Below, piece after piece: positions 7,897-48,176 of a stretch of DNA of 64,000 nucleotides. The DNA comes from Nostoc sp. NMS9 (GTDB lineage: Bacteria; Cyanobacteriota; Cyanobacteriia; Cyanobacteriales; Nostocaceae). Made by a program: the position numbers and the translations under genes. Within the stretch, counting starts at the first letter, position 1; each line of letters starts with the position of its first letter. The notes below the pieces were generated by a model that worked only from the letters and a program-made list of their open reading frames with translations, was not told where the DNA came from and searched no databases. The DNA is taken from positions 186,001-250,000 of the forward strand of contig NZ_JABXKL010000019.1 of NCBI RefSeq assembly GCF_017114995.1. The letters are read 5' to 3'.

Positions 7897-8557
7897 AACC
7901 AAAATTAGGTAATCTTTCTCTATTCTAAGAAAAATTATTTTTTCGTGCCGATTTAACAAATTATTTATCAAGTAAATATAAAGTAGCAGCCATGAGTGGC
8001 ATATACCAGAACAGATGAAAGAGGGGCCGGGGACTGGGGGAGAATAATAACTCCTAACTCAGCACCGATCAAGCCCTAGCTATCCGCTAACAGCATCAAT
8101 CCAGGTAGGCTTTTAGTCCGCACAAAAGTCTGCTGTAGTCACTTATTCGGCTTCCAAGCTAGAGGCTCGCCAGAAAACTTACTGCAAGCATTAAAACTTT
8201 GGAGCCGACGAGAGTTTGTCTAGCTGCAACCTTAGTCATTGGCTGCTACTGTCAGAATAAAAACTTTGCTTTTTGAATTTATAATTAATATTTTTAAATT
8301 CATAATACATTATTATCTGAAACTTTATATTTTAGATTCGATGATAATATTTTTGTATTGACATATATTTTTTATTAATAAACAATAGGCTTGTATATTG
8401 CTTGTATAAATATCACATAAGATTTTTATTTATTGATACTATTTATGTTTATTTTTTGAATTTGTAATATTAAGCGAATTAACTGATTTAGTCAGTTAAA
8501 TTTACGATTATGATTGAGAATATATTTATTATGATGATTTCAGACGAGAGCTAAATT

Positions 8558-33917: not shown

Positions 33918-36900
33918 TCAAGGGCATACACTCAGTTTTTTCTTTTCATCAGGGTTAGTTACAAGGTAATCTTTAAGGCGATCGCACCCTTCATCCAGCA
34001 GTTCATTTAGTCCCCGGATACGCCACACAATTACCGTCTTGTCTTCACTGGCTGTAGCCAGCAGTTTACCATGCGGGCTAAAATCTGAACTATTAATATT
34101 GCCTTGATGATCTGTAAATTCTGCTACCTGTTGTCCTGATGATAAATTCCACAGCCGAATTTTGTTAGTAGCAGAAGCTGTCGCTAGGATTTTACCGTCC
34201 CATGTGAAACGTAATTGTGTAACCCTGCCTTGATAAGTCTTAAATTGTTTTAACTTATTTCCGAAATAATCCCATAAGATAACCGTCCCATCGTCTCCAG
34301 CTGTAGCCAGTTTATTTTCTTTGAGACTAAAATTGACTGTGTTAACATTGCCATTATGACCGATCAATTTTATAGACAACTTCTTGCTCTTGCTACTAAT
34401 ATCCCATAGAAATGCCTTCGTATTTTCTCCAACTATAGCTATAAGCTTGTCATCTGGACTAAATGTAACGCCGTTAACTTTGCCTTCGTGCGGAACTTCT
34501 TGCAACTTGTTTCCGTTGAGATCCCACCGTATCGGTTTGCCATCATCTCCAGCACTAACAAGCTCATTTCCTGCGGTATTAAAATTGATACTCCATATTG
34601 CTTGAGAATGCCCCTCAAAAGGTTTCCGACTATTTAACCAATCCCCAGTGCGCGTCCAGAGCTTTATTGTGCCATCTTTTCCACCTGTAACAATTAAGTT
34701 TTTTGCTTTGTCTGGGCTAAAACGTACAGTATTGACACCACTTTGACCGGCTTTGAATTTTTTTACCAGCTTCTCTTCGAGGTTCCAAATCCTAATATAG
34801 TCATCATCTGAAGCTGTAACCAGTAAGTTGCCTTCTGGGTTAAAACGAACACTACCAACAGCTTTTTCATGCCCCTCTAGTTTGATTAAGGGATTTTTGG
34901 GTTTGATTAATGATTTTCCTGGAACTGCCCAAAATTTCACCGTACCATCATCTTTTCCAGCAGTAGCAAGAGTATCGCCCTTCGTATTAAAGCGAATGCT
35001 GACAACACTGCCCTGATGACCCTTAAATTCTGCTTCCAGTGTTCTATTGAAATTTTTCCACAGTCGGACTTTGCCATCGCTACCTGATGTAGCAATCAGT
35101 TCATCATTGCTAATACGAACTGTCTCCACACCTTCAGGGTGAGCCTCAAATTTTTTTTCTGCCAGTTCTTTTCCTGAAAAATCCCACAGCCTGACGGTAC
35201 CATCATCTCCAGCTGTCGCAAGTTGTTTTTCTTTGGGGTGAAACCAGACGCTGTTAACACTACATTTTTTAGTGTCTTTGACATTGCATTGATGACCTTT
35301 AAATATTGCTATCGATTCTGTCTGATTGATATCCCAAAGCTTTGCCAGTCCATCCTCTCCAGCTGTGGCAAATTGCTGGTTATTATAAGGGTTGGGATTA
35401 AGGCTTTTGATACTACTGCTGTGAGCAGGTATTGTTTTAAAAAGTTGTCCTTGGAGAGTCCATAGTCTGACGTAGCCATCATCTCCAGTTGTTGCCAACA
35501 GGTTTATCTTGGGAAGAAAACGAACATTGTTAACACTACATTTATCACCCTCTTTTGCTAAGTCGTATTCTTTTATTTCACATTGATGATGTATAGATGT
35601 TATGGAAGGTGGAGACCAATTTTGATCTGCTGATAAAAAATTCCACATCTGTGAGACATCCCACAGTTTTACCCAACCATTACTTGTAGCTGTCGCCAAT
35701 ATTGTTTGATCTTCGTTAAAATCGATACTCTTGATACTGTTGTTGTGCAGTTTAGAATTTTTCAATGTTCTCAATGGCTTTCCCAGGAAATCCCGCCATG
35801 TGACTGTGCCATCTTCTCCACCGACAACAATTAATTCCTGTTGGTTATCCTTTTGAATAAAACGGATACTATTTACACCTCTTTGGTAAGTATTGATTTG
35901 ATTTGTTTGATGAATATTATCCAGAATCTTTTGCAAAGCTAGCAGAGGACTTGTAGCTGGACAGTCTTGCAAACATTGACTGTTCCAAAAAGCCATCTTT
36001 TTAACTTCTTGTCCGGCTTCCATTGCTGACATTAAAGCCTCCATTTCTCCAGCGCCAGACTCAAAATTTCTTAAAGCGGTGACTCCAGAGGCTTCAACTT
36101 CGGCTGTCCATCGCAGCCAAAATGCAACCATAGCTAAGATTGAGACTACTACTAAACCACCTGTCAGCCCAAATAGAGTCAGCTTGCGGCGGCGTTCTTT
36201 TTGCTGACGATCGCGATCGCGCAGTGCCGAACTCTGCTGGATGAAACCTTGCTCTGCTTGGCTCAACTCATCTCGGCGCTGCTTGAGCCAATTTTCTGCC
36301 TCCGCTAGGGGGACACCTCGCAGCAATGGCCCCTCATCTTGTCCGGCATTTTCCCACTGACGTATTCTTGTTCGCAATAATTCTTGCCAAGTGCGGAAAG
36401 AGCGATCGCTCTCCATCCAAACGTGCAGTCGTCCCCATTCCCGAATCAAGGTTTCATGGACAATCTCTACTGTTTCTTTACCAGCAGTTTCATCACGTCC
36501 AGTTACTACTAGCCGCGCATCAGCCAAACGCCTCACCAAATCCCAATTATTGTCTCCCACCTCATTTTTGGTAGCTAGTCTGCGGGTGTCTTCTGTGCCT
36601 TCCCCAGGCCGCACCAGTTGAACAAATATTTGCTGTGCTTGTTGTTGCTCCTCTGGATTGAGCCTAGTAAACTCAGCTTCTGCATGGTTCGCCAACGACT
36701 TTTCTACACCGCCGATCACTTCGTAAGCAGCATGAGTCATTTGGCGATTTTGCTGTTTTGCCCACAGTTGCGTCAAAGTAAATTCCAGTAATGGCAAATT
36801 GCCTGGTGAATCCGCCACTGCTCTGAGAATCCGCTCTGCAAGACCCTCTTCTAACCTTACTCCTTGCTTGTTTGCAGGTCGAGCGATCGCCTGCTGCAAT

Positions 36901-38153
36901 TCTTCTCGGTTCATCGGAGCAAGTTTTAAATCAGCATTCTGCAAAGCATCGGCGAAACGACGATCAGAAAGTGCATATCCCAGAAAGTCAGCCCGCAAGG
37001 TCAGCAAAAGGGTAAAATTCTGTACCAGTTTAGCCGCTTCTAGTAATTGATTTAAAAATAGCTGGCGCTCTTTAACATCTGAGCAAGAAGTATAAAGTTC
37101 CTCCAATTGATCGACCACCAGTAACAGGCGGTTATCCTCATTCTCCGACAAAACCTGCGATAAAAAAGTATGTCCTAGTTCTCCCTCTCGCAACGCACCA
37201 GCTAATTTTCTGGCATCAATATCTTGTTGTATCTTCGTTTCCTTTGGTTCACGCAGGCGCACAATTACTGCTGTTAATTCATCTACAGGATGAGTTTTTG
37301 GGCGAAAAGATTCGATCAGCCAATTACCTTGCTGGCGTAGATGCGGAATTAAACCCGCAAACACTACGCTAGATTTACCACTACCAGACGATCCAATTAC
37401 CGCTACCAATGATTGTTTTTGGACTGTATCTACTAGTTTTTGGGTGAAAATATCCCGTCCAAAGAAAAACCGTGTATCTGCTTCCCGGAAAGGAAATAAA
37501 CCGCGATAGGGACAAGAGGCAATAGCTTGGTCACGCAACACAGACCATGCACTCACCAACACTTGTGTGGGAATCATAAACCCAACTTTAGCTTCTGGTC
37601 GGTTGATGTCTACTGCTACTGCTATACCTGCTATACCCTGAAGCTCACCATCCCATATAGGCGCACCACTGAAACCAGGCTCTAGTCTATAACCTGGTTG
37701 TTTCACATCCTCTAGCTGCACCCAACTTTTAGCTGTGCGTCCACGTAAAACGCCAGTAGCCCAAACACCATCTGGTTGTCCTGCTGGAAAACCTAATACT
37801 CTCAAAGGATGTCCCGCCCAATCATCAGATGTAATTAATGGTGCGAGTAGAGCTTTATCTGGAGGAGAATGTTTTAATTCCAATCCAGCAATATCTTCTA
37901 GTGCCATACCAGGATTTACAGGTAGCCAGAAAACAACCTTAGCTTGGAGGAGTTGTTTAGCTGCCACTAGGGGAAAATCCAAGGTGATTTCTGCATCTGG
38001 CATTTGGACAGTATTCCTTGGAAGTCCCAAGGCATCAGCTACTACATGGGCGCAGGTGAGGATGTACTTTTGGGAAACTAAGAAACCAGCACCAATTACT
38101 TTGCCACCATTGGAGTAAATCCTGACAATAGATAACTCAAGGGGTGCTGCCAT
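33918..38153 (-). CDS. Trypsin-like protease - nSTAND-type NTPase - WD40 (14 repeats) protein
   Basis: GAGFLVSQKYILTCAHVV and GFSGAPIWDG trypsin motifs; CPYRGLFPFREADTRFFFGRDIFTQKL..VAVIGSSGSGKSSVVFAGL; LLLVVDQLEELYT; TM segment; 14 WD-type repeats. Confidence 0.88.
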   Translation of the reverse strand: MAAPLELSIVRIYSNGGKVIGAGFLVSQKYILTCAHVVADALGLPRNTVQMPDAEITLDFPLVAAKQLLQAKVVFWLPVNPGMALEDIAGLELKHSPPDKALLAPLITSDDWAGHPLRVLGFPAGQPDGVWATGVLRGRTAKSWVQLEDVKQPGYRLEPGFSGAPIWDGELQGIAGIAVAVDINRPEAKVGFMIPTQVLVSAWSVLRDQAIASCPYRGLFPFREADTRFFFGRDIFTQKLVDTVQKQSLVAVIGSSGSGKSSVVFAGLIPHLRQQGNWLIESFRPKTHPVDELTAVIVRLREPKETKIQQDIDARKLAGALREGELGHTFLSQVLSENEDNRLLLVVDQLEELYTSCSDVKERQLFLNQLLEAAKLVQNFTLLLTLRADFLGYALSDRRFADALQNADLKLAPMNREELQQAIARPANKQGVRLEEGLAERILRAVADSPGNLPLLEFTLTQLWAKQQNRQMTHAAYEVIGGVEKSLANHAEAEFTRLNPEEQQQAQQIFVQLVRPGEGTEDTRRLATKNEVGDNNWDLVRRLADARLVVTGRDETAGKETVEIVHETLIREWGRLHVWMESDRSFRTWQELLRTRIRQWENAGQDEGPLLRGVPLAEAENWLKQRRDELSQAEQGFIQQSSALRDRDRQQKERRRKLTLFGLTGGLVVVSILAMVAFWLRWTAEVEASGVTALRNFESGAGEMEALMSAMEAGQEVKKMAFWNSQCLQDCPATSPLLALQKILDNIHQTNQINTYQRGVNSIRFIQKDNQQELIVVGGEDGTVTWRDFLGKPLRTLKNSKLHNNSIKSIDFNEDQTILATATSNGWVKLWDVSQMWNFLSADQNWSPPSITSIHHQCEIKEYDLAKEGDKCSVNNVRFLPKINLLATTGDDGYVRLWTLQGQLFKTIPAHSSSIKSLNPNPYNNQQFATAGEDGLAKLWDINQTESIAIFKGHQCNVKDTKKCSVNSVWFHPKEKQLATAGDDGTVRLWDFSGKELAEKKFEAHPEGVETVRISNDELIATSGSDGKVRLWKNFNRTLEAEFKGHQGSVVSIRFNTKGDTLATAGKDDGTVKFWAVPGKSLIKPKNPLIKLEGHEKAVGSVRFNPEGNLLVTASDDDYIRIWNLEEKLVKKFKAGQSGVNTVRFSPDKAKNLIVTGGKDGTIKLWTRTGDWLNSRKPFEGHSQAIWSINFNTAGNELVSAGDDGKPIRWDLNGNKLQEVPHEGKVNGVTFSPDDKLIAIVGENTKAFLWDISSKSKKLSIKLIGHNGNVNTVNFSLKENKLATAGDDGTVILWDYFGNKLKQFKTYQGRVTQLRFTWDGKILATASATNKIRLWNLSSGQQVAEFTDHQGNINSSDFSPHGKLLATASEDKTVIVWRIRGLNELLDEGCDRLKDYLVTNPDEKKKLSVCP

Positions 38154-42849: not shown

Positions 42850-43288
42850 TTATCCATCACCTTCATCTAGATATTTCAGGAAAGAATGAACACCCAGTAA
42901 CTGAATGCTATAGCTTGCCATTACTGCTCTTAAATCATCATCAGCCCGCAAGTCATCATCTCCAGATACGATAATCCCCGCTTTGCCATCAATCGCTGTA
43001 GCCAACACAGGTAAATCTTTAGAATCTCGACAATTAGGCGGAACAGTTTTCAACTCAACCCATAAGGTGCGGTACTGCAATTGTTGTTCTAGGCGAATCG
43101 CCTGACTAGAATCAATCCGCTCTCTTAAACGGGGGCGATTCCAAACAAGATGGAGTTCTTCCATAAGGGGTTGACTCATATACCAACTGGAATTTATCCT
43201 CATTAAATGCTGCCAAAATCGGCAATGTAACTCGCCCTTTCAGCAAAATGCGAATCCAAATGTTGGTGTCGATGACCACTCGCAACAT
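42850..43288 (-). pseudogene. PIN-domain (VapC-like) toxin with frameshift
   Basis: MLRVVIDTNIWIRILLKGRVTLPILAAFNEDKFQLVYE.. then +1 shift to SQPLMEELHLVWNRPRLRERIDS...DLPVLATAIDGKAGIIVSGDDDL. Confidence 0.75.
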
Positions 43289-43527
43289 TAGACCTGCTGG
43301 GATTGCTGACGCACAGCTTTAATTTCAGCCCTGATTTTATCGTCTGTAATCTCATTCACGGGGGGTTCGGCATAAAGTTCTTGAATTAAAGCCGTCAAAT
43401 CTGAACGTAAATCTATTTGAATCAAGGCTCTAGCGACTTTTGCTCGTTCGTCTGGCTGCAACTGTTGTACCGCCGTAATGAGTTGTTCCAAAGTAATTGG
43501 GATCGATACCATGTCAGTACCCATCAT
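43288..43527 (-). CDS. Putative antitoxin partner of the PIN toxin
   Basis: Immediately upstream of and touching the PIN toxin; VSIPITLEQLITAVQQLQPDERAKVARALIQ. Confidence 0.65.
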   Translation of the reverse strand: MMGTDMVSIPITLEQLITAVQQLQPDERAKVARALIQIDLRSDLTALIQELYAEPPVNEITDDKIRAEIKAVRQQSQQV

Positions 43528-44053: not shown

Positions 44054-44171
44054 CAATTTAGCAGCTTGACTCAATGTGAATTTTGGGACTTGCCTTTATT
44101 CAGCAACGCCGATATTCCCGCGATCGCACACCCTTATATCTGCGCTGATTTGGCGACTTGCGTCTGGATAT

Positions 44172-47100
44172 TTAAGATTTTCGTTCATCTGTAATTCCCC
44201 AGATTAGTTGCTTCATGGGATCGGGTTCTGACTGGCGGAAATCAACCCACATCATGCCTTCTAGAAAAATTGGTAATTTTGGAGTTTGAACACAATCTGG
44301 AAGTAGTACAGGAATAACGGGACATCGTCGTCTAACAAATTCCCGCAAAAAAGCATCTAATTCTGCGTCTTGCCAGGGGCCAGTATTATTCTTTCCAATA
44401 AAGACAGCCGCAGCTTTTATATTCCTGATCTGTTCTTCCAATGCTCGTTGCCAGGGTAAACCGGGTCGGAGTTCCCATTCATCTAGCCAAGGCAAAATCC
44501 TAAATTCTTTAAGCTCTTGGCCAATGAGCTTGACATTTGGCTTATCATCGCTATTGTGGCAGAGAAATACGTCGAAGTCTTTTGTTGCAATTTTCCCTTG
44601 AACTGAAGAAGTCGCAGTTTCACGATTGCGTTGCAAGTTGGCAGTTTTATCCATTTCTGCAAGAGTGGATGCCTGTGTTTCTGTTATTTGCTCTGCCTGT
44701 TCTTGATCTATCAAAAAAATAGGAGTTTCACCACAAACGCTACAACCAATCCAGTCAAAACCACGTTCACGCCGCATCTGGATATGCTGTTCAGGAATTG
44801 TTGCACCACAATTATGGCAAGCAAGAGTGCGCCGCTGTTTGATACTTTCTGCTAACGCCCGTCGCTTCAAATGAATCAGGATGTAATCTTCAAATTGAGA
44901 GCGAGTTTGTTCATTTGCCGCTCTGTCAAAAAAGAGTGTTAATTCTCCCTTACCCTCTTGAACTTCCCGTAAGAACATACCGCATAATCCACCCACTTTT
45001 GCTTTGTAAGTTGCGGCATTTTTCCATAAGTCTTGTTTGATAAAAAATCCACTTCTTGTGAGCCTCACGGCTAAAGTTGCATAAATATTGAGAACTGCAC
45101 CTTCAAATTCAAAAATTACTGTTTGACCTTCTGGATTAGGTGCATCGGGCCATTCACGGGTAAATTGTGATGGAAATACCAAATACGCGACATCGTCCGC
45201 CGATTGGCGTAACACTAACTCGTGGTATAGTAACTCTTCAACCGTTGCAATTAGCAGTAGTTCTTCGAGCGCTTTATCCTTAATTCGCTCATCTTCTGAC
45301 ATCCGAAAACGCCCGTGTCGTGCATCTTCTTCAGCGATACTGCCTAAACCATCAGGTTCATCCTTAGCAGCATTAATTAGGGCAGAAGCGTAAGCATCTA
45401 GCAATTCGGGTTGCAGTAAAACATAATTTCCAAAAGAAATTCGTCGGATTAAGTCCCTCGACTCGACTCGTCCAATACAGATATCAAATTGGGAACGCAA
45501 CTTTTCTGTCTCGGTAGGAGCGTTTTCAGACTTTAGGAATGCACGATATAAGTCATCTACTGTAGATAACAATCGCTCGGCTTTTTTTTCTGCAATTAAG
45601 AAATCTTTGATTTGCTGGAAGAGTTTTGTTGAGCTGACGCTTGGCAAAGCTTTCCAATTAATAGCGTTGCGAATTGCATCGATTAGTTCTGGAATTTTCC
45701 ACCCCTCTCTGGCGCTAGTTTCAAAGTATCCATCAAAGCCTAATTCTTTTACCCATGTATCGATACGCTTTTGACTAACGCCGATACCACCGCGATCTGC
45801 ACGAGCAGCAACCAGAAATTTCTTTAATGAAGAAGTACTAGAAGACTGAAGCCGTTGTGCTTGAGTGAGCGCCCGATCCCAGTGACGCACTCCAGCGAAG
45901 GGATCAGTTTCACTACGAGTATCGAAGATAATGAGAGCAACAGCTACTTCGTTTAGGTGCAATTGATGAATCAAACGATAGCCTGGTTGCCCTGCCAGAT
46001 CCCATAGCATAGTTTCACGAGTCTTTGCTTGAGAACTTTCTACAATGCCTTGTTTATCGAACGTCCAAACTCGCCGTCCGTGAGTTGATTCCGTTGGCTG
46101 GAAGTGTTCGCCACTTAGCACTAAACCAAGTCCAGATTTTCCTACTCCGCTATCTCCTACTAAAACAACTTTGGCATTAGCATAATGAACCGAAGATGAA
46201 ACCGAAGGAACAGTCAATAAGGTAGGAAAGTCTAACTCCCAAATATGGATGATCGTGTCCTTTTCTCCAAGTGTGGCAAGAATAGGCAGCTTTGGATTGA
46301 AGGCAACGCTGGAGAGCCATTTAGCCGAAGTGGATTCATGGATAACTGCTATAGTTTCCCAAGTTTTGCAATTCCAGAGTCGAACAGAGTTATCCAGAGA
46401 TTTAGATACAAGAAATTTACCGTCGAAGGAAAAAGAAACATCAGTCACTGCATCTGCATGTCCTTCAAGAACCCTAGTTAGCGATCCAGTGGCAGTATCC
46501 CAGAGCATGATCGTACCATCAAGAATTGCTGATGCCAACACTTGACTATCCGGCGACCAGGCTATAGCAAGAAATTTGCTATTTTTTAAATTTATGGACT
46601 TGGAGGATGTTTGAGTTATGTAAGAAGCTACTAGCTGTAATTCATTTGTTTCGGCTAACTCGGCGTGCAACTCCCTTAACTCTGTCATTTGAACTTCTAT
46701 ACTTTCCTTGTTTTCAATCTCTTCGAGATTACTCAATATCTCGTTCCATTCTCGTTCTAATTGTTGCAGCTTTTCTAGCTGTTCTAGGTGCTTTTGGTGA
46801 GCAGCATGAATCTTGTAAAGACTAATGCTAGTTAGATTTTGATCTAATAAGGCTAGCATTTGCCCGCTTGAATCCCAAACAAGATTACCTAATCTTTTGT
46901 TTTCTAGTAATTCATCTAATAGCTCATCAAAAGATTGACGTTTATAATAATATGTTTTTGGAAATTTATTATTAATAATATTAATATCATTTCTAGAAAA
47001 AAACTGTAAGCTCTCATTACTATCAGAGTATATAACAAATGTTTCTTTATCAGGTCTATTGACCTTGTTGTCGCTAAAGAGATTCGCTATCTTTTTAGAA

Positions 47101-47735
47101 GTAAATTCTATTTTTCTAGAAAAACTTTTAAGTTTTTCCTCTATATCCTCTATTTTTTTTTCTGTTTGTGCATCCCAAAAATTAATTTTTGTAGGAAAAA
47201 TATTTTTTTTATTTATATATTTTTCTGTTTGTGCATCCAGCCACTCAAATTTTGCAGAAATTGTTTTAAGTTCTTTCTCCATTATTGTTTGTATTTGTGT
47301 ACCCCCCAAAACCTTAATTTCTTTATTATTATAGTAATCGCTATTTCTTGATGCAAACATTTTTCCAGATGGACACCATGCGATCGCATTACTGTTCTCA
47401 TTTTCAATTGCAGATCGTAGATCGCCTGTGTTGGTATTCCAAATCTTTATTGTGTCATCGCCAGAGACTGATGCTAAAACTTCTCCATCTGGCGACCATG
47501 CTATTCCAAATATAGTGTCTGTATGTCCTTCAAGTACGGACATAAGCTCTCCAGTTTCTGTATTCCAAAGCTGGATTGTATGGTCTTTGGAGGCTGAAGC
47601 AAGCTTTTTCCCATCTGCTGACCATGCAATTTGAGTGATGATGTCACTGTGTCCTTCCAGGGTATAGCGCAGCTTGAAACCTGAAGGTGGCGAGAGAACC
47701 GAATTTTCCTGCTCTGAACTTGCTACTTCAGACAT
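44172..47735 (-). CDS. WD40 propeller - Roc/Ras-like GTPase - Zn-ribbon - TIR protein
   Basis: WD repeats (LEGHSDIITQIAWSADGKKLASASKDHTIQLWNTETGE..); GTPase VVLVGDSGVGKSGLGLVL..LWDLAGQPGYRLIHQLHL; CHNCG..CSVCG; TIR KDFDVFLCHNSDDKPNVKLIGQELKEFRILPWLDEWELRPG. Confidence 0.92.
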   Translation of the reverse strand: MSEVASSEQENSVLSPPSGFKLRYTLEGHSDIITQIAWSADGKKLASASKDHTIQLWNTETGELMSVLEGHTDTIFGIAWSPDGEVLASVSGDDTIKIWNTNTGDLRSAIENENSNAIAWCPSGKMFASRNSDYYNNKEIKVLGGTQIQTIMEKELKTISAKFEWLDAQTEKYINKKNIFPTKINFWDAQTEKKIEDIEEKLKSFSRKIEFTSKKIANLFSDNKVNRPDKETFVIYSDSNESLQFFSRNDINIINNKFPKTYYYKRQSFDELLDELLENKRLGNLVWDSSGQMLALLDQNLTSISLYKIHAAHQKHLEQLEKLQQLEREWNEILSNLEEIENKESIEVQMTELRELHAELAETNELQLVASYITQTSSKSINLKNSKFLAIAWSPDSQVLASAILDGTIMLWDTATGSLTRVLEGHADAVTDVSFSFDGKFLVSKSLDNSVRLWNCKTWETIAVIHESTSAKWLSSVAFNPKLPILATLGEKDTIIHIWELDFPTLLTVPSVSSSVHYANAKVVLVGDSGVGKSGLGLVLSGEHFQPTESTHGRRVWTFDKQGIVESSQAKTRETMLWDLAGQPGYRLIHQLHLNEVAVALIIFDTRSETDPFAGVRHWDRALTQAQRLQSSSTSSLKKFLVAARADRGGIGVSQKRIDTWVKELGFDGYFETSAREGWKIPELIDAIRNAINWKALPSVSSTKLFQQIKDFLIAEKKAERLLSTVDDLYRAFLKSENAPTETEKLRSQFDICIGRVESRDLIRRISFGNYVLLQPELLDAYASALINAAKDEPDGLGSIAEEDARHGRFRMSEDERIKDKALEELLLIATVEELLYHELVLRQSADDVAYLVFPSQFTREWPDAPNPEGQTVIFEFEGAVLNIYATLAVRLTRSGFFIKQDLWKNAATYKAKVGGLCGMFLREVQEGKGELTLFFDRAANEQTRSQFEDYILIHLKRRALAESIKQRRTLACHNCGATIPEQHIQMRRERGFDWIGCSVCGETPIFLIDQEQAEQITETQASTLAEMDKTANLQRNRETATSSVQGKIATKDFDVFLCHNSDDKPNVKLIGQELKEFRILPWLDEWELRPGLPWQRALEEQIRNIKAAAVFIGKNNTGPWQDAELDAFLREFVRRRCPVIPVLLPDCVQTPKLPIFLEGMMWVDFRQSEPDPMKQLIWGITDERKS

Positions 47736-47882
47736 ACTGTTACTCCGTTCGGCACTAACTAAAGGATTCTAGAAGATTAAGGTCTACTGAGTTTTTTTCA
47801 CGCAATCAAATAGGACTCCTATAGTTGAATTATATTTATAATACTTTTGAGCGCGATCGCCTTTGCCGTAAGTTGGGTTGAG

Positions 47883-48176
47883 CTAAGGAAACCCATCATC
47901 TAATACTCCAACACGATGTTGAAGTACCTCAACACGACTTTGGAGTACCTCGACACGATGTTGAAGTACCTCAACACGACTTTGAAGTACCTCGACACGA
48001 TGTTGAAGTACCTCGACACGATGTTGAAGTACCTCAACACGATGTTGAAGTACCTCAACACGACTTTGAAGTACCTCAACACGATGTTGAAGTACCTCAA
48101 CACGACTTTGAAGTATATGTCGCTTATTTAAAGTAATTTTTTTGACAACCTGAATAAAAACTTCAGTACAATCCAC
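47883..48176 (-). CDS. Heptapeptide-repeat protein (RVEVLQ[H/S])n, uncertain whether expressed
   Basis: 97-aa ORF, mostly perfect 7-aa repeats; other frames also open because the repeat lacks stops. Confidence 0.4.
   Translation of the reverse strand: MDCTEVFIQVVKKITLNKRHILQSRVEVLQHRVEVLQSRVEVLQHRVEVLQHRVEVLQHRVEVLQSRVEVLQHRVEVLQSRVEVLQHRVGVLDDGFP
47911..48115. repeat. 21-bp tandem repeat, about 10 units
   Basis: acgatgttgaagtacctcaac / acgactttgaagtacctcgac units. Confidence 0.95.

Follow-up and report, generated by a model that had tools for sequence, protein, structure and literature searches.

A divergent Roc-COR protein of Nostoc sp. NMS9 with a WD40 propeller, a hypervariable in-propeller insert and a TIR domain, a candidate conflict receptor

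The DNA stretch analyzed here (the window; 64,000 nucleotides of contig NZ_JABXKL010000019.1 from Nostoc sp. NMS9, positions 186,001 to 250,000) harbors, at 44172-47735 on the minus strand, a single open reading frame which begins with ATG, lacks internal stop codons and specifies a protein of 1187 amino acids. Pfam detects WD40 (7.5e-40), Roc/Ras (approximately 1e-15) and TIR_2 (8e-22) domains in this product, and an AlphaFold2 model was generated from an alignment of 35 relatives (mean pLDDT of 77, pTM of 0.74). Reading frame, Pfam and model together yield the layout WD40(x7)-Roc-COR-ribbon-TIR, which bears out both the uninterrupted gene and the sensor-switch-effector order reported in a first-pass annotation of this DNA; the features of the gene given below are all located on the minus strand. 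Immediately upstream of the gene, at 47909-48115, lie approximately ten 21-bp tandem repeats which are open in several frames. The window further encodes, at 33918-38153 (minus strand), a many-bladed nSTAND1-WD40 protein of 1411 amino acids whose N terminus gives weak protease-like matches; this represents a second conflict-type receptor, approximately 6 kb from the gene under study. A PIN_3-domain gene (42850-43527, minus strand), preceded by a small 79-amino-acid open reading frame, is positioned between the two receptor genes, and the PIN_3 gene and this small frame are likely to constitute a toxin-antitoxin pair.

The AlphaFold2 model places seven sheets ahead of the GTPase, four-stranded with a few incomplete, whose strands span residues 20-58, 63-100, 106-131 plus 184-188, 285-308, 367-413, 419-455 and 460-501. 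Alignment and model assign blades 1 and 2 to residues 20-102 (47430-47678), the first three strands of blade 3 to residues 103-137 (47325-47429) and its outer strand, KINFWDAQT, to residues 183-191 (47163-47189), followed by blade 4 (residues 281-312; 46800-46895) and blades 5 to 7 (residues 367-502; 46230-46637). Because Foldseek aligns the model with seven-bladed propellers (7big; 487 aligned columns, TM by target of 0.88), the modelled ring is taken to be closed, two inserts looping out of it. The seven blades counted previously from the translation are thus recovered, and the propeller is predicted to close despite its inserts, an open ring having been named beforehand as grounds for rejecting the earlier reading.

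Both alignment and model confirm the two positions, between blades 3 and 4 and between blades 4 and 5, at which the first-pass annotation had reported inserts, while the content ascribed to them is in part revised. The near-duplicated motif formerly assigned to the 3-4 insert does reflect a tandem copy, but one of propeller sequence rather than novel insert content: KINFWDAQTEK forms the outer strand (D) of blade 3, for which orthologues read EIEFWDAQTEK or EVKFWNARTGE, and residues 138-182 (47190-47324; 27% GC) repeat the end of that blade in tandem, with 67% DNA identity over 88 nucleotides, a duplication restricted to the window gene and its orthologue L029 (Nostoc S4). The 3-4 insert itself, residues 192-280 (46896-47162; approximately 24% GC), is hypervariable and mostly modelled with low confidence. 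The coiled coil previously described in the 4-5 insert (residues 313-366; 46638-46799) is retained as a predicted helical hairpin (309-337 and 343-361), although with only moderate confidence and with the qualification that it is absent from the orthologue L032.

The propeller is uninterrupted in most relatives, among them a 59% identical paralogue encoded by the same genome, and both inserts are limited to one small cyanobacterial group. Within this group, L032 (90% identity in the COR region) carries a small 3-4 insert alone; L028, L030 (Calothrix NIES-4101) and L031 (Tolypothrix FACHB-123) carry a larger 3-4 insert and the hairpin; and the window gene and L029 carry these together with the blade 3 tandem copy. 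As the sets grow in this manner from the insert-free paralogue, the inserts have been acquired stepwise.

The inserts form a hypervariable, AT-rich block with a mosaic history. Across residues 183-263, the window protein shares only 32 to 49% identity, with many gaps, with its counterparts in L028, L030 and L031, as opposed to 93 to 99% across Roc and COR. Informative sites within residues 180-359 group the window gene with L029 rather than with L028 by 120 to 9, whereas those within residues 420-1079 favor L028 over L029 by 47 to 23; in the core tree, too, L028 branches as sister to the window gene, with which it has chromosomal flanks in common. Since the block groups with L029 and the remainder of the gene, the core tree and the flanks group with L028, the insert block has been exchanged between copies. 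A diversity-generating retroelement was discarded as a source of this variation, as a search of the genome, within its sensitivity, found the insert region only once and hence no template repeat. It is also conceivable that the inserts are neutral, i.e., unconstrained AT-rich loop expansions on the propeller rim that vary since nothing depends on them, and we regard this as a plausible reading that nevertheless falls somewhat short of probable. Model confidence below a pLDDT of 50 at residues 134-182 and 222-280, a GC content of 24 to 27% compared to approximately 43% over most of the gene, and the lack of inserts in most relatives would all be in keeping with neutrality; set against it are the separate history of the block, mosaic with L029 and not with L028, and the preservation of reading frame and flanking blade in all copies. 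In the only securely aligned pair, values in the other pairs being inflated by alignment gaps, dN/dS reaches approximately 1.4 to 1.8 in the insert compared to approximately 0.2 to 0.4 in the neighboring blades, Roc and COR; this difference is founded on few changes and does not distinguish relaxation from selection.

The propeller is followed by a Roc GTPase domain (residues 519-694; 45654-46181), which scores 58.1 bits in Pfam against a cut-off of 27 and retains the P-loop GDSGVGKS (46134-46157), the switch I Ser-Thr, DLAGQ and TSA motifs, while the G4 position reads xRxD instead of NKxD, with R and D being invariant. The small GTPase of the first-pass annotation is, therefore, intact in its motifs, but it does not stand alone, belonging instead to a Roc-COR tandem whose second member, approximately 270 residues following the GTPase, had been overlooked. 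Pfam, at threshold, returns no match and thus no COR domain for residues 695-967 (44835-45653). In hhalign, a profile of this region nonetheless gives a colinear alignment to the COR part of classical LRR-Roc-COR proteins that related genomes encode (E value of 7.8e-5, 62% probability, 236 columns). A COR-only model (pLDDT of 87.5) retrieves 23 PDB matches at an E value of <0.001 in Foldseek, all of which are CtRoco, LRRK1 or LRRK2, with TM-scores of approximately 0.4 and with 3dpt as the best match (1.5e-9). Residues ~695-967 are, on the strength of these models and profiles, assigned to a distant COR domain, for which no other fold competes. A sequence profile of the region does not find COR among solved structures whereas a classical COR profile does, from which it follows that annotation pipelines would miss this domain; the L030 copy is annotated as a “WD-repeat protein”. 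This same invisibility to Pfam and to sequence searches of solved structures counts against reading the protein as a Roco receptor. Because a COR fold directly follows Roc, the window protein is considered a divergent Roco (LRRK2-type) protein. Pfam places its NTPase in the Roc/Ras class and not among STAND-type AAA+ NTPases, and the protein is NLR-like in its working at most, without being a member of the NLR/STAND group. The earlier suggestion that a GTPase substitutes for the STAND NTPase holds as to class, but the idea has already been published for AP-GTPase systems (PMC8195603).

Downstream of COR, a CxxC..CxxC ribbon (C973, C976, C998 and C1001; 44706-44834) and a predicted helical linker (residues 1019-1050; 44586-44681) lead to the TIR domain (residues 1053-1184; 44184-44579). 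The closest solved structures by sequence are BtTIR (7uwg) and AbTIR (8g83/7uxr), along with PdTIR, and W1121 and E1125 (44361-44363) align with the W...E motif of AbTIR and BtTIR, the glutamate of which is the catalytic residue in AbTIR. The catalytic glutamate on which the first-pass annotation had made its effector claim depend is thus present, and it is conserved in 69 of the 78 TIR-bearing relatives; NAD+ cleavage by the window TIR is predicted on this basis. In L034 (Calothrix MO_192.B10; 8039-8461), the fused TIR has tyrosine in place of this glutamate and a stand-alone, glutamate-bearing TIR is encoded 35 bp downstream, which provides a hint of TIR-TIR recruitment. L013 has likewise lost the glutamate, and three TIR genes adjoin the orthologue in L030. 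Such arrangements would fit a TIR that serves chiefly as a scaffold recruiting other TIR proteins, the enzyme being the neighbor; given the glutamate in the window protein and in the great majority of members, and a window copy with no TIR gene adjacent to it, we deem this role improbable for the domain described here.

A scan of the genome collection with the core recovered 302 encoded relatives, and the 79 best loci among them were retained. Its scores are bimodal, full-length relatives exceeding approximately 500 bits and ordinary Rocos, which match in the Roc part only, scoring approximately 60 to 80 bits. Relatives are patchily distributed among the Cyanobacteriota, Chloroflexota, Actinomycetota, Planctomycetota, Verrucomicrobiota, Acidobacteriota, Bacteroidota, several proteobacterial groups, Poribacteria, Nitrospirota and methanogenic archaea, and are mostly of the WD40-Roc-COR-TIR type, at least four blades being recognizable in 71, and a TIR domain in 78, of 88 members examined. 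In the wider family, Roc and COR have changed more slowly than propeller and TIR (e.g., 68% and 64% identity versus 41% and 40%). Besides the 59% identical paralogue, the genome of NMS9 encodes an ordinary LRR-Roc-COR protein and a TIR-WD40-Roc-COR-DUF4365 protein (L003; contig C51) with an N-terminal TIR and a C-terminal DUF4365 domain, while a relative in another genome (L024; G030) bears a calcineurin-like metallophosphoesterase on the Roc-COR core. As homologues bear a TIR, an N-terminal TIR, DUF4365 or a metallophosphoesterase, the effector, variable at the C terminus as in AP-GTPase systems, is exchanged on a constant Roc-COR core.

Several phyla are scattered across the core tree, a pattern which, given the genome bins and paralogues it includes, is suggestive but not conclusive of horizontal transfer. 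The three cyanobacterial copies in L029, L030 and L031 are at least 89% identical to the window gene, and their DNA resembles the window solely from approximately 25 nucleotides before the ATG (approximately 10 in L031) through the stop codon, so that 44170-47760 is common to all four within otherwise unrelated surroundings. The L030 copy resides on a 127-kb mobilizable plasmid, with a phage integrase gene on one side and TIR genes on the other. Universal vertical conservation, previously listed as an outcome that would speak against a conflict role, is not what was found: the gene moves horizontally, and its type occurs in 3, and its clade in approximately 14, of 145 sampled family genomes. 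No relative was detected among phage records or viral contigs, and carriage by phages or prophages was accordingly set aside. A stretch of approximately 42 nucleotides upstream of the gene (47782-47824) recurs in several other contigs of the genome, perhaps as a small dispersed repeat; it was rejected as a repeated mobile unit since it does not coincide with the boundary of the shared gene. The upstream stretch of L029 and L030 was sought in the genome of NMS9 and was not found there.

The uninterrupted paralogue lies head-to-head with a NACHT-NCH2 gene (contig C92, 22776-28682; L138, 10755-16685). Each of the ten cyanobacterial loci of the paralogue's group in the collection shows this divergent pairing, and in a family scan all eleven NACHT homologues with at least 56% identity adjoin the uninterrupted paralogue type; the two counts draw in part on the same genomes. 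No NACHT partner accompanies the window copy; the constant pairing in its sister lineage suggests cooperation between Roco and NLR receptors in bacteria. A 165-amino-acid protein (L029, 8103-8597; contigs C97, C31, C68 and C92 of the NMS9 genome), with no match in Pfam or NCBIfam, repeatedly abuts TIR genes; it adjoins several relatives, including that in L029, and a degraded copy is located next to the paralogue. It is possibly a TIR partner or inhibitor. The association with defense islands expected by the first-pass annotation receives a mixed answer, as only a few of 106 close neighbors of relatives match known defense families in PADLOC, a count made without a background control, and enrichment is not claimed. 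This scarcity counts against reading the protein as a conflict receptor. PADLOC matches the window protein itself only partially, in WD40 or TIR, and a known defense system was discarded as its identity.

We propose that the product of the gene is probably an intracellular receptor of the Roco class and of the AP-GTPase/Roc-COR type known from prokaryotic conflict, with a WD40 propeller replacing the usual leucine-rich repeats; the propeller would sense a ligand, GTP would open the Roc-COR assembly, and TIR would consume NAD+ or signal. The propeller and the variable 3-4 insert would bind an invader-derived or damage-derived ligand, leading to GTP exchange and, by analogy with CtRoco, to opening of the Roc-COR assembly; the freed TIR domains may then assemble together or with neighboring TIR proteins and consume NAD+ or produce a cyclic ADP-ribose signal, whereby the infected cell would be stopped. 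Specificity would be altered through exchange of insert blocks between copies, and the gene would spread to new loci. TIR activity generally requires assembly, yet CtRoco is monomeric with GTP, a contrast which counts against the proposal, as the coupling of GTP to TIR could run in either direction. In CtRoco, GTP binding rotates the repeat domain by approximately 135 degrees and splits the dimer (PMC11052575).

The same biochemistry could answer to another trigger in multicellular cyanobacteria, the protein acting as a receptor-controlled switch for cell death or development (e.g., filament death under stress) that is not specifically antiphage. Kaur et al. (2020, 2021) tie such systems to multicellular bacteria (PMC7159879, PMC8195603), and the evidence for the window gene is not phage specific; its very patchy occurrence, plasmid carriage and variable sensor, however, are better suited to conflict than to a conserved role in development, and we consider a developmental switch unlikely. 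The conflict-receptor proposal may be extended to a one-gene, GTP-switched immune receptor whose specificity is reset by recombinational exchange of a hypervariable in-propeller cassette, and which derives from a lineage paired with a divergently encoded NACHT receptor, Roco and NLR acting together; in this full form the proposal is doubtful. Roco proteins are known chiefly through LRRK2 and Parkinson's disease. The fusion of Roc-COR to a TIR with an intact glutamate offers an assayable output, NAD+ loss, which could make bacterial Roc-COR function and switching directly testable. Close copies with and without inserts, exchanged insert blocks, and a glutamate-deficient TIR beside an intact stand-alone TIR constitute a natural comparison series.

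A literature search, conducted mostly outside subscription papers and preprints, did not find the prokaryotic WD40-Roc-COR-TIR clade, the NACHT pairing or the hypervariable propeller insert. Among known systems, the AbTIR and BtTIR NADases share the TIR fold and W...E catalytic motif of the window protein, whose TIR, in contrast, is fused to a Roc-COR switch and a propeller and has an activity predicted from sequence. The NACHT-WD40 and nSTAND-WD40 NLR-like proteins of bacteria and fungi resemble it in propeller sensor, NTP switch and death-effector logic, while the window protein has a Ras/Roc GTPase in place of the STAND ATPase and arranges its domains in another order. Brown-algal LRR-ROCO candidate immune receptors (PMC11378527) likewise represent Roc-COR receptors with a reshuffled, diversified sensor part, but are eukaryotic and rely on LRR exon shuffling, as opposed to block exchange in a single bacterial gene. 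CtRoco, other bacterial LRR-Roc-COR proteins and LRRK1/LRRK2 have in common with it the Roc-COR tandem and, according to Foldseek, the COR fold; in contrast to all of these, its sensor is WD40, its effector is TIR (neither kinase nor absent) and DLAGQ stands at switch II of its Roc domain. In reviews, prokaryotic Rocos are presented as LRR-Roc-COR proteins (PMC11378527, PMC4104024), and Kaur et al. (2021) put forward as prokaryotic conflict systems AP-GTPase-COR proteins that combine LRR sensors with at least 24 effectors, TIR being one of them (PMC8195603). The window protein conforms to these in its Roc and COR switch, N-terminal repeat sensor, variable C-terminal effector and multiple paralogues per genome, and departs from them in possessing a WD40 propeller and no N-terminal leucine-rich repeats, a COR so divergent that Pfam misses it, a CxxC ribbon ahead of the effector and a hypervariable in-propeller insert. 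As the literature already presents Roc-COR proteins of the LRR type, bearing TIR or other effectors, as predicted conflict systems, the WD40 protein is regarded as a variant, and not a plain member, of the AP-GTPase systems.
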